From contig NZ_CP047954.1 of the NCBI RefSeq assembly GCF_014279895.1, forward strand, positions 1,116,001 through 1,180,000: 64,000 nt of DNA, read 5' to 3'. This stretch comes from Synechococcus sp. M16.1. Its GTDB lineage: Bacteria; Cyanobacteriota; Cyanobacteriia; PCC-6307; Cyanobiaceae. The stretch's first letter is position 1. The number at the start of each line of letters is the position of its first letter. Below are positions 40,656 to 51,925 of the stretch, piece by piece. A program made the position numbers and the translations under genes. The notes beneath the pieces were generated by a model, which searched no databases, was not told the DNA's origin, and saw only the letters and a list, made by a program, of their open reading frames with translations.

Positions 40656-40840
40656 CAAAGCTGAGACATTTTAAAGCAGAACCTAGAGAGAATACAAAAA
40701 AATTATCCGGTAAATCAAGTCCAAAAAACAAACTTTCAGAATATTGACGCAGAAACTTGGAGATATTGGTTTTGTGATGGCTTGGCGAAGTCCAAGGCAC
40801 CCACCACATTGATCAAGCGAAGGGGGTGAACCGCCATGCC
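40656..40840. other. AT-rich intergenic stretch
   Basis: About 185 bp clearly AT-richer than the surroundings, lying beyond the 3' end of the probable 6S RNA. I see no convincing gene, terminator or repeat in it. Confidence 0.5.
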
Positions 40841-41032
40841 GTGCGAGCCCCAGTGGTCGACCTGGAAGAACCAGAAGGGGCGACAAAGTGGGGTTTCGTT
40901 TCCGGCTGCATGGCCGGTCTACGTCACCGTCACGACAGTCTCCCCAAGTCGAAAGAGAGTCAGATCAGAGCACTAGAAAAAGGCCGTCACCAACACAGCA
41001 GTTCGCTACCAACCCTAGTCCTGACTCTCGCT
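40841..41032 (-). ncRNA. ssrS: Probable 6S RNA
   Basis: About 190 nt on the minus strand immediately 3' of the purK stop. The two ends can pair (GCGAG at 41031-41027 with CTCGC at 40847-40843) as the closing stem. Internally CCGGC/GCCGG and ACUGUC/GACGGU helices and a GGGG/CCCC stem give a long irregular rod. Cyanobacterial 6S RNA (Yfr7/SsaA) is known to lie next to purK; the length also fits. Called from position, size and fold, without a covariance search. Confidence 0.68.
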
Positions 41033-42175
41033 CTAGAGGGGCCAGATCCGGCGAATGGCGGCAAGTGCTGACTCAGCCTCATCGCGCCGCTTGAGGAGTG
41101 TGTCACCCTCAAGCAGCAGCGTCACGTGCCCCAACTTGCGGCCCGGTGTTTCCGGTGACTTGCCGTACCAGTGCAGGTGAAGCCCCGGCACGGCCTCCAG
41201 GGACTCAAGCCGCTGATCCAAAGGAGGATGACGCTCGGGGTCGAGGCCGAGCAGGTTGACCATCAAGGCACCACGGCTTTTGAGCTCGGGATCAGGCACG
41301 GGAAGACCAGCCGCGATGCAGAGCTGCTGATCGAACTGACTGCTGGTGCAGGCCTCGATCGAGAAATGCCCGGAATTGTGGGTGCGTGGAGCAATTTCAT
41401 TCACCTGCAGGCCAGCGGGCCCATAGAAAAACTCCAGAGCCAGCACCCCCACATAGCCGAGCTTCGTCATCAGAGAGGCCGCCACGTTGTAAGCCAGCGC
41501 AGCCACCGAAGGATCCACGGGAGCAGGGGCCAGAACCCAGTCGCAGACTTGTTGATGTTGGTGGGTTTGCACCAGCGGAAAATGGCGGATGCGGCCGCGC
41601 TGATCGCGGCTGACCACGAGAGCCAACTCCAGCTCGTAGTCCACCCAGGATTCCAACAGCCAGTCGTCGGCAGGGACCGCCCGCAACAACTGCGCCAGGC
41701 CATCGATGTCGCGCAACACCACCGTGCCCTTGCCGTCGTAACCACCACGGGAGGCCTTGGCCATCACCGGAAAGGTCCAGCCCTGAGGAAGCGCGGGATG
41801 GGCCGGTGAAATCAAACTGAGCGGACACCAGGGCGGGCTCGGGATCGCCAGATCGTCGAGCAGCTGGCGCTGCGACAACTTGTCGACCAAGGGCGAAAGC
41901 GCAGCAAGCGAGGGCTGGAAACGAACCCCCTGCTGCTCCAGCGGCAGAAGGGCATCGATATTGACCCACTCGTTCTCGAAGGTGATGCCGTCACAACCCA
42001 CCACCAGCTCCCGGGTTCCTGCCACATCCCGGGGATCCGCTGCCACGAGGCGCGAGGCCAAACCAGCCGCGGGATCCGCTGCATCGGACGTTTGAACAGC
42101 GATGGGAACATCGCGTTGCGCAGCAGCCTGCACAAGCATCCGTGCCAGCTGACCACCTCCCACAACGCCGATCAT
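41033..42175 (-). CDS. purK: N5-carboxyaminoimidazole ribonucleotide synthase
   Basis: ATP-grasp enzyme of purine synthesis, carboxylating AIR with bicarbonate. 380 residues: N-terminal GVVGGGQLARMLVQAAA, FENEWVNIDAL, ATP-grasp PVMAKASRGGYDGKGTVVLR, and EIAPRTHNSGHFSIEAC near the metal site. No purE adjacent. The start is ATG 42175. Confidence 0.96.
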   Translation of the reverse strand: MIGVVGGGQLARMLVQAAAQRDVPIAVQTSDAADPAAGLASRLVAADPRDVAGTRELVVGCDGITFENEWVNIDALLPLEQQGVRFQPSLAALSPLVDKLSQRQLLDDLAIPSPPWCPLSLISPAHPALPQGWTFPVMAKASRGGYDGKGTVVLRDIDGLAQLLRAVPADDWLLESWVDYELELALVVSRDQRGRIRHFPLVQTHQHQQVCDWVLAPAPVDPSVAALAYNVAASLMTKLGYVGVLALEFFYGPAGLQVNEIAPRTHNSGHFSIEACTSSQFDQQLCIAAGLPVPDPELKSRGALMVNLLGLDPERHPPLDQRLESLEAVPGLHLHWYGKSPETPGRKLGHVTLLLEGDTLLKRRDEAESALAAIRRIWPL

Positions 42176-49152: not shown

Positions 49153-49205
49153 GTGCTTCAGAGCGAATGCCTAGGCTGTGGCCATCCTGCCCCGAACCGG
49201 TCCTG

Positions 49206-50138
49206 ATGAGCGCTGACACCGCCCTTGTTGCGGCGATCAACCGGCTTCGCCAGGACCGCAATGCCGTGATCCTGGCGCACTACTACCAGGAGCCTGAGAT
49301 TCAGGACATCGCCGATTTCGTTGGTGACTCCCTGGAGCTGTCGCGCAAGGCCGCCAGCACCGATGCAGACGTGATCGTGTTCTGCGGCGTGCACTTCATG
49401 GCGGAGACCGCCAAGATTCTTAGTCCGGAAAAGACGGTGGTGCTGCCGGATCTAGAGGCCGGATGCTCCCTGGCGGACGACTGCCCCGCCGATGAGTTCG
49501 CCCGCTTCCGGGCAGAGCACCCCGACCACGTCGTGGTGAGCTACATCAACTGCACGGCCGCAGTGAAGGCGCAAAGCGATCTGATCTGCACCAGCAGCAA
49601 TGCCGTTGATCTGGTGAACCAACTGCCTGCCGATCAGCCCGTTCTGTTCGCCCCCGATCAGAACCTGGGGCGCTGGGTTCAGCAACAGAGCGGTCGCGAG
49701 CTGACCCTCTGGCCGGGACGCTGCATCGTTCACGAGACCTTCAGCGAAGAAGCCGTGCTGGCCCTCAAGCACGAACATCCCGGGGCTGAAGTGATCGCCC
49801 ACCCCGAGTGCCAGCAGAATCTGCTGGACCTGGCGGATTTCATTGGATCCACCAGCAAGCTGTTGAATTACGCCGAACAAAGCTCCTGCAACAGCTTCAT
49901 CGTTCTGACGGAACCGGGGATCTTGCATCAGATGCAGCAGCGGGTTCCTGAAAAAACCCTGCTCGACGTTCCAGGGATCGATGGATGCAGCTGCAATGCC
50001 TGCCCCTACATGCGGCTCAACACCCTTGAAAAACTGAAGGCATGCCTGGAGACCCTCACGCCTGCAATCGAGATGGATGAATCGATGCGACTGAAGGCCA
50101 TAAAACCCATGCAGCGCATGCTCGAAATGAGCCGGTGA
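49206..50138 (+). CDS. nadA: Quinolinate synthase A
   Basis: [4Fe-4S] enzyme forming quinolinate from iminoaspartate and DHAP in NAD biosynthesis. 310 residues: [22 protein letters not shown], the Cys ligands in [10 protein letters not shown] (FCGVHF), and C-terminal [17 protein letters not shown] with the remaining cluster cysteines. ATG 49206 preferred over the frame from 49167. Confidence 0.95.
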
Positions 50139-50205: not shown

Positions 50206-50637
50206 ATGGCCCGCGTCATCCAGCCCCAGGGCATCAGGGTTCTGACCTTGACGGCAGCGTTGGCGGGGACGTTGTGCACCGCAGCGACTGCACAACCGTG
50301 GAACCAACCGATTCCTGAACCCGCAACGGAGTCCACAGCACAAACGATCAAGTTGGCCGAGCAACTCAACACGGTGGGCGCCAGGTTTTTTGGAGCCCAT
50401 TGGTGCCCCGCCTGCAAAGAACAGATGAAGCTCTTCGGCAAACAGGCCGGAGCCAACCTGAACTACGTGGAATGCGGTCTGCCCGAAAAGTACCCCGATC
50501 AGCTCAGGCAGTGCAGGGATAAAAACATTCGATCCATCCCCACCTGGACACGGCCGGGATCAACGCGACTCCAGGGTGTTCAATCGATCAACACCCTGGA
50601 GCGCTGGAGTGGCCTAAGGCCTGAGCCACTGAATTGA
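50206..50637 (+). CDS. Thioredoxin-fold protein, exported
   Basis: 143 residues. Leader with a hydrophobic core (VLTLTAALAGTLCTAATA) then a thioredoxin-like domain with active-site WCPAC in FFGAHWCPACKEQMKLFG and a cis-Pro segment IRSIPTWTR. Similar to the thioredoxin domain fused to VKOR in cyanobacteria, so a role in disulphide formation in periplasm or lumen is likely; inference. Confidence 0.85.
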   Translation: MARVIQPQGIRVLTLTAALAGTLCTAATAQPWNQPIPEPATESTAQTIKLAEQLNTVGARFFGAHWCPACKEQMKLFGKQAGANLNYVECGLPEKYPDQLRQCRDKNIRSIPTWTRPGSTRLQGVQSINTLERWSGLRPEPLN

Positions 50638-50871
50638 TTACTTCTTACGGCAATAGCCAGCGCCAACATTCATCCAGCCGGAGGGGCAGGCTTCACCGTT
50701 GGTGGGCTTCATCTCGTAATAGATCGGAGACACACAAGTGGTGCCAAGGGTGTTGACGTAACCCAGGGGTCATTGGTTGTGGCCTTGGGCCTTGGGAATT
50801 TTTTTCTGAGCCAAAGCGGAGCTGGGCACAGCCAGGGCTGAAACAAACAGAGCGGCAGCGAGCAGCTTCAT
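50638..50871 (-). pseudogene. Small secreted Cys-rich protein with in-frame UGA
   Basis: Starts at ATG 50871 with a signal peptide (MKLLAAALFVSALAVPSSA), runs 33 codons to a TGA (50770-50772), then stays open in the same frame for 43 more codons to TAA. The region after the TGA carries PLGYVNTLGTTC, VSPIYYEMKP, GEACPSGWMNVGAGYC and RKK. The TGA directly precedes PLGY just as Cys precedes PSGW, so it sits where a Cys would complete an even Cys set. It may be a TGC/TGT to TGA nonsense mutation, a sequencing error or a recoded codon. Function unknown. Confidence 0.75.
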
Positions 50872-50938
50872 GGCAAGCGGGTCGAACGCGCTCAAGGTAT
50901 GGGCCTTTCAGACTGTCTGCAGCGATCGGCAGCGGAGC

Positions 50939-51925
50939 TTGATCGAACGCACACCGGAAGGGTTGTATTGCCGTGCCGCAAAGGCCTGGGTCGATCCGTG
51001 GCGTCCGGTTCCCCGGGCCCTGATCACCCACGCCCATGCCGACCACGCCCGCCCCGGATGCGGGGAGTACTGGGCCGTGGCCTCCAGTGAAGGGGTTCTG
51101 CGCCAGAGGCTCGGCAAAGACATCACCCTTCACCCGGTGGCCTACGGCGAAGAACACTGGCTAGGGCAGTGCAAGGTGTCGTTTCACAGCGCCGGGCACG
51201 TGCTTGGTTCAGCGCAGATCCGCCTGGAATCGGAGGGTGAGGTGTGGGTGGTCAGTGGGGATTACAAACGGGATGACGATCCCAGCTGTGACCCCTTCGA
51301 ACCAGTGCGCTGCGATGTGTTGATCACCGAAGCCACCTTCGGAATGCCGATCTATAGCTGGCAAAGCGGTGAGCAGGTGGCCAAGGAGATCCATGCCTGG
51401 TGGAGCCGTGATCGCAGCAGGCCATCTCTGCTGTTCTGCTACGCCTTCGGCAAAGCCCAACGCTTGCTGGCTGAACTGAAGGCCATCGGCGTGGAGGAGG
51501 AAGTGCTGCTGCACGGCGCCGTTGAAACCGTGACCCGCCACTACCGCGAGGCAGGGGTTCCGATGACCCCCAGTCGTTCCGTCAGTGAACTGCCCCGCAA
51601 GGATCCGCTCGAGGGACGATTGATCCTGGCGCCACCGTCGGCCCATCGCTCCAGCTGGATGCGCCGCTTCAAGTCACCCCAAACCGCCTTTGCCTCCGGC
51701 TGGATGGCCGTGCGCGGAGCCCGTCGACGGCGGGGCTACGAGCGGGGATTCGTGCTCAGTGATCATGCCGACTGGCCTGGACTGATCCAGACCGTTCGCG
51801 ACAGCGGCGCCCGCAAGGTGTACGTCACCCATGGACAGAGTGACGTTCTGGCCCGTTACCTGCGGGAGGTGGAGGGTGTGGATGCGGAGCCGCTGGACAC
51901 CCTGTTCGAAGGGGAGTCGGACTAG
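50939..51925 (+). CDS. Ligase-associated MBL-fold DNA exonuclease
   Basis: 328 residues from TTG 50939. Metallo-beta-lactamase/beta-CASP-type nuclease: ITHAHADHARPG (zinc motif), FHSAGHVLGSAQIRLE, SGDYKRDDDPSC, and C-terminal LSDHADWPGLIQ and VYVTHGQ. It matches the exonuclease found with bacterial ATP-dependent ligases. The frame is open back to ATG 50870, which would add 23 residues and overlap the divergent gene start; the TTG gives the usual length. First gene of the repair cassette. Confidence 0.88.
   Translation: MIERTPEGLYCRAAKAWVDPWRPVPRALITHAHADHARPGCGEYWAVASSEGVLRQRLGKDITLHPVAYGEEHWLGQCKVSFHSAGHVLGSAQIRLESEGEVWVVSGDYKRDDDPSCDPFEPVRCDVLITEATFGMPIYSWQSGEQVAKEIHAWWSRDRSRPSLLFCYAFGKAQRLLAELKAIGVEEEVLLHGAVETVTRHYREAGVPMTPSRSVSELPRKDPLEGRLILAPPSAHRSSWMRRFKSPQTAFASGWMAVRGARRRRGYERGFVLSDHADWPGLIQTVRDSGARKVYVTHGQSDVLARYLREVEGVDAEPLDTLFEGESD

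Follow-up and report, generated by a model that had tools for sequence, protein, structure and literature searches.

Translation of the minus strand of the window, that is, the whole 64,000-nucleotide stretch of the Synechococcus sp. M16.1 genome analyzed here, revealed a 78-codon frame that runs from an ATG (50871) to a TAA (ending at 50638) and is broken by a single internal stop: 33 residues from the ATG are followed by a TGA at codon 34 (50772-50770), 43 further codons and the TAA. The initial annotation had described this frame, with TGA as its only interruption and 43 clean codons downstream, and both statements were confirmed on the minus strand, the strand having been left unstated; the plus strand of 50638-50871 translates to unrelated residues. 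Judged by eye, the N-terminus of the encoded protein (residues 1-21) looks like a signal peptide. The start of the gene overlaps that of a divergent exonuclease gene by two bases, and its 3' end adjoins a convergent gene for a small CPAC-motif protein, whose family matches were all sub-threshold (AhpC-TSA, 14.7 bits with a cut-off of 26; redoxin_TUGYCR, 14.2 bits with a cut-off of 100). No promoter-like and no terminator-like sites were found near the four-Cys gene, and a comparison of 50600-50900 with Rfam gave nothing at E 1 or better.

Table 1. Features of the four-Cys locus, the wider window and the genome (positions are those of the window, except where a contig is given)
Feature	Position	Strand	Basis
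Interrupted gene for a small, probably exported four-Cys protein	50638..50871	-	Read-through translation and homologues
TGA at codon 34, where homologues conserve a Cys codon (nearest relative, TGC)	50770..50772	-	Translation and homologues
Codons 1-21, signal-peptide-like	50809..50871	-	Judged by eye
Small CPAC-motif protein, perhaps thioredoxin-like, with a signal-like N-terminus; convergent neighbour	50206..50637	+	ORF; sub-threshold family matches
Ligase-associated DNA damage response exonuclease; divergent neighbour	50870..51925	+	TIGR04122, 472.3 bits, cut-off 325
nadA, on the same side of the four-Cys gene as the CPAC-motif gene	49167-50138		
6S RNA	40824-41007	-	98 bits, gathering score 46.4
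selD (693-residue frame)	G000:C1:179214-180137	-	
Selenouridine synthase gene	G000:C1:950594-951496	-	

A broken frame this long is by itself weak proof of a gene, because a mechanical count of start-led frames of at least 33 codons that meet a stop and continue with at least 43 open codons retrieved 214 comparable places in the window, 173 of them at TGA. It is homology that argues for a real gene here, since related genomes encode the same protein without the stop. With the read-through protein as query, we recovered 53 loci among genome contigs, all but one with cyanobacterial titles. The exception (L041), titled Bifidobacterium breve, carries a member of the four-Cys family and is probably a mislabelled (metagenome) bin. 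Codon 34 is covered at 56 places in these 53 loci and reads TGC at 35 and TGT at 19, the remaining two being pieces of one frameshifted copy (L037). A search of the genus returned a match to the family in 28 of 34 whole genomes, that of M16.1 included, and 31 loci from the genus searches read TGC (27), TGT (2), TGA (1, the window gene) and TCC (1, the decayed copy L100) at this codon; the two sets overlap, and their counts are not additive. The window gene is thus alone in carrying TGA at codon 34 among the loci read there. Genus matches from which no locus was extracted lie outside these counts; most of them report no stop, and two weak ones hold TGA codons (G013:C1, E 3e-4; G030:C8, E 7e-4).

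The claim of the initial annotation that the UGA stands for a fourth Cys was borne out by this alignment: homologues do not end at codon 33 but run through it with a Cys conserved as TGC or TGT. Indeed, all members of a chosen set of 32 copies keep C34, C46, C62 and C74; decayed copies were left out of this set, and the window protein was entered into it with Cys at 34 by construction. Beyond this set, L028 has Ser at 46 and L082 has Phe at 62. As judged from sequence, the family is a small, probably exported four-Cys protein of Synechococcus-type cyanobacteria, with two copies in the M16.1 genome, and the four Cys residues suggest two disulphides in the exported protein.

The nearest relative found, L009, aligns with the window without gaps and at 97.5% identity over all 6231 bases around the gene. 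Within the gene itself there are only six differences, namely TGC in L009 versus TGA in the window at codon 34 and five synonymous changes (codons 17, 24, 38, 42 and 45). Intact homologues therefore have a sense codon one base away from TGA: the nearest relative has TGC, and the remaining copies read, decayed ones aside, have either TGC or TGT. Among the explanations offered by the initial annotation (nonsense mutation, sequence error or recoding), a nonsense mutation from TGC fits best, and we consider a recent event of this kind, in one copy of a two-copy family, to account for the interrupted gene with a probability of about 0.8. A C-to-A change on the coding strand would have turned the Cys codon TGC at position 34 into TGA; as the protein otherwise matches that of L009 in every residue, this probably happened recently. 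Translation should then end after 33 residues, roughly the signal peptide plus 12 residues, and the stop should remove the whole mature domain. Since translation should halt there, the window copy is probably non-functional, the full protein most likely not being made. A 31-codon GTG frame after the stop (50733-50638), taken from the mechanical ORF list, is a candidate for a restart, which we regard as unlikely; this frame is without a signal-like start.

The M16.1 genome also carries an intact paralogue (C1:1340456-1340680), 71% identical to the window protein and with TGC at codon 34, which may make loss of the window copy tolerable; we infer that it compensates. Family copies of other genomes bear lesions of their own: TGA at position 52 along with other losses in L099 (L039 reads the same), TGA at 66 in L100, frameshifts in L037 and L040, and one TAA or one TAG in two of the genus-search matches. 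Lesions so scattered and of several kinds favour gene decay, whereas with recoding one and the same TGA should be retained across relatives. The window gene accordingly resembles recent nonsense pseudogenes of small multi-copy families: a single substitution to a stop is seen in no other locus read, the genome retains an intact paralogue, and copies elsewhere carry lesions unrelated to this one. We found no sequence feature in which it differs from them, and the case looks ordinary.

The main rival to a nonsense mutation is that the deposited genome is wrong at this base, through base calling or consensus building, and that the organism itself has TGC and an intact gene; this we regard as unlikely but well ahead of any form of recoding. 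That a single base is concerned, with no other amino-acid difference from L009, is what such an error would leave. The assembly, on the other hand, is one contig of 2,112,236 bases, listed as 99.99% complete, and the surroundings do not look error-rich, though a single wrong base at codon 34 is possible. Of 40 ORFs of at least 100 codons drawn from 35 kb of a relative, of which about 28 kb was compared, 30 had a counterpart at 60% identity or better in the window, where six of these 30 contain stops. Inspected by eye, these six comprise one early gene end (by six codons), one stop upstream of the start of a listed ligase-like ORF, three in apparent shadow or intergenic frames, and one in o_10394. 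The early end belongs to a gene at 41033-42175 (minus strand), which we take to be purK-like and whose counterpart in the relative G033 is six codons longer, probably a harmless length variation. We infer that the stop at codon 34 is in the organism rather than in the assembly.

Some read-through of a genuine stop, whether regulated or due to near-cognate tRNA-Trp or tRNA-Cys, could still yield a useful amount of full-length protein; recoding of this sort would be unusual for a cyanobacterium. We hold such read-through to be very improbable, and slightly more so its specific form, in which a leaky but functional site would place Cys or Trp where the exported protein probably has a disulphide, the frame after the stop being still under selection in this species. 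The frame is indeed clean after the stop, where its three differences from L009 are all synonymous (neutral chance about 0.013), and the all-synonymous differences outside codon 34 would also fit continued selection. This pattern is nevertheless poor evidence for selection after the stop, because the branch of the relative is intact and selected, as was that of the window before the stop arose. A recent mutation explains the clean frame. Part of the synonymous change probably did occur on the branch of the window, since its codon forms are rare or absent among 13 orthologues: that at codon 17 is found nowhere else, that at codon 24 in two others, and those at codons 42 and 45 in one other.

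Several further observations argue against read-through. TGA at codon 34 is kept by no relative read there, and the intact paralogue is present in the same genome. A suppressor tRNA with a UCA anticodon was also considered and rejected, as this anticodon occurs at none of the 43 tRNA places found in the M16.1 genome with the RF00005 model, which a tRNA too odd for that model would escape (anticodons were read at 30 + 9 + 4 places, the last four being Tyr, Leu, Ser and Leu). Nor is the RNA at the UGA unusual: three stretches folded no better than their shuffles (z of +1.00, +1.23 and +0.05), contrary to the stem-loop just 3' of the UGA that had been proposed as a thing to look for. Read-through in general is left with no positive evidence; the initial annotation had called recoding unproven.

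That the UGA at codon 34 encodes selenocysteine is the least probable reading by a wide margin, and we rejected it, selA being missing, and selB and tRNA-Sec below cut-off, in the searches made, and the RNA adopting no special fold. As in bacterial selenoproteins with Cys homologues, a TGA stands where homologues have a conserved Cys, which is equally expected from a TGC-to-TGA mutation, and the genome carries selD (188.5 bits, cut-off 125). Unlike in those systems, the search for Sec genes suggested by the initial annotation yielded only selD above the cut-off. No selA match was detected in the M16.1 genome or in any of 34 genomes of the genus; in the control for this search, four of 14 genomes matched, E. 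coli among them, and one exceeded the cut-off. None of seven selB matches passed the cut-off, and the best of them (193.2 versus 242.25 bits), in a 401-residue frame, covers positions 1-263 of 581 and is presumably EF-Tu, as expected from this partial coverage. All 11 tRNA-Sec matches likewise fell short. The best, at 46.5 bits just under the gathering score of 47, proved to be a tRNA-Ser with anticodon TGA, and the other ten lie on Leu, Ser, Gly, Tyr, Trp, His and Arg tRNAs. The window gene further differs from bacterial selenoproteins in showing no SECIS-like fold and in having no second locus with TGA at codon 34 among those read.

The presence of selD is instead accounted for by the tRNA selenouridine synthase gene of the same genome (368 bits, cut-off 219.75). 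This pairing fits passages of PMC1273633 in which Prochlorococcus and Synechococcus are described as carrying ybbB along with a selD that is extended by an NADH dehydrogenase-like part. A passage of PMC1794560 gives the Sec trait as undetected among Cyanobacteria, and on these portions of the two papers the cyanobacteria examined there stand outside the trait. Some Prochlorococcus records are listed in PMC5029168 as having an orphan selD, which would allow selD further roles among cyanobacteria. The window gene illustrates clearly how a TGA at a Cys position can look like a selenoprotein candidate, here in a genome where selD serves another purpose, and yet be, as the relatives indicate, most probably a one-base nonsense change. 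As things stand, the case is of little consequence.

With regard to the family itself, a single structure model built from the intact L009 protein and 28 others had a mean pLDDT of 82 (about 90 from residue 21 on) and a pTM of 0.62. This L009 model, whose listed secondary-structure elements are strands, is confident in the predicted mature part. Foldseek returned 15 matches to it at E 10 or better and none at 0.001, none of 68 chains reached a Z of 2 in VIA-align, and PDB sequences provided no match at E 1; PHROGs yielded no family and phage records no match. The family shows some similarity to the CPW-WPC domain (PF09717, TIGR01492), whose name comes from Plasmodium. Each of the 32 members scanned matches Pfam PF09717 with an E of 0.1 or lower, 4e-05 at best. 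The window protein falls just below threshold (22.3 bits, cut-off 23), its match at residues 32-54 holding the first CPxGY and the next Cys and spanning 23 of 59 profile positions, and the intact L009 relative scores 16.6 bits against the NCBIfam CPW-WPC model (cut-off 35.6). Membership was not assigned, these scores being under the curated Pfam and NCBIfam cut-offs. A CPW-WPC search of 121 genomes matched in none, but it is uninformative, its controls likewise matching nowhere. PMC4501334 names both CPW-WPC and cyanobacteria, its one CPW-WPC passage concerning chromerids. CPW-WPC scores near but under the Pfam threshold are seen for the gene at 50638-50871 and for its homologues in L009-L061, L063 and L101.
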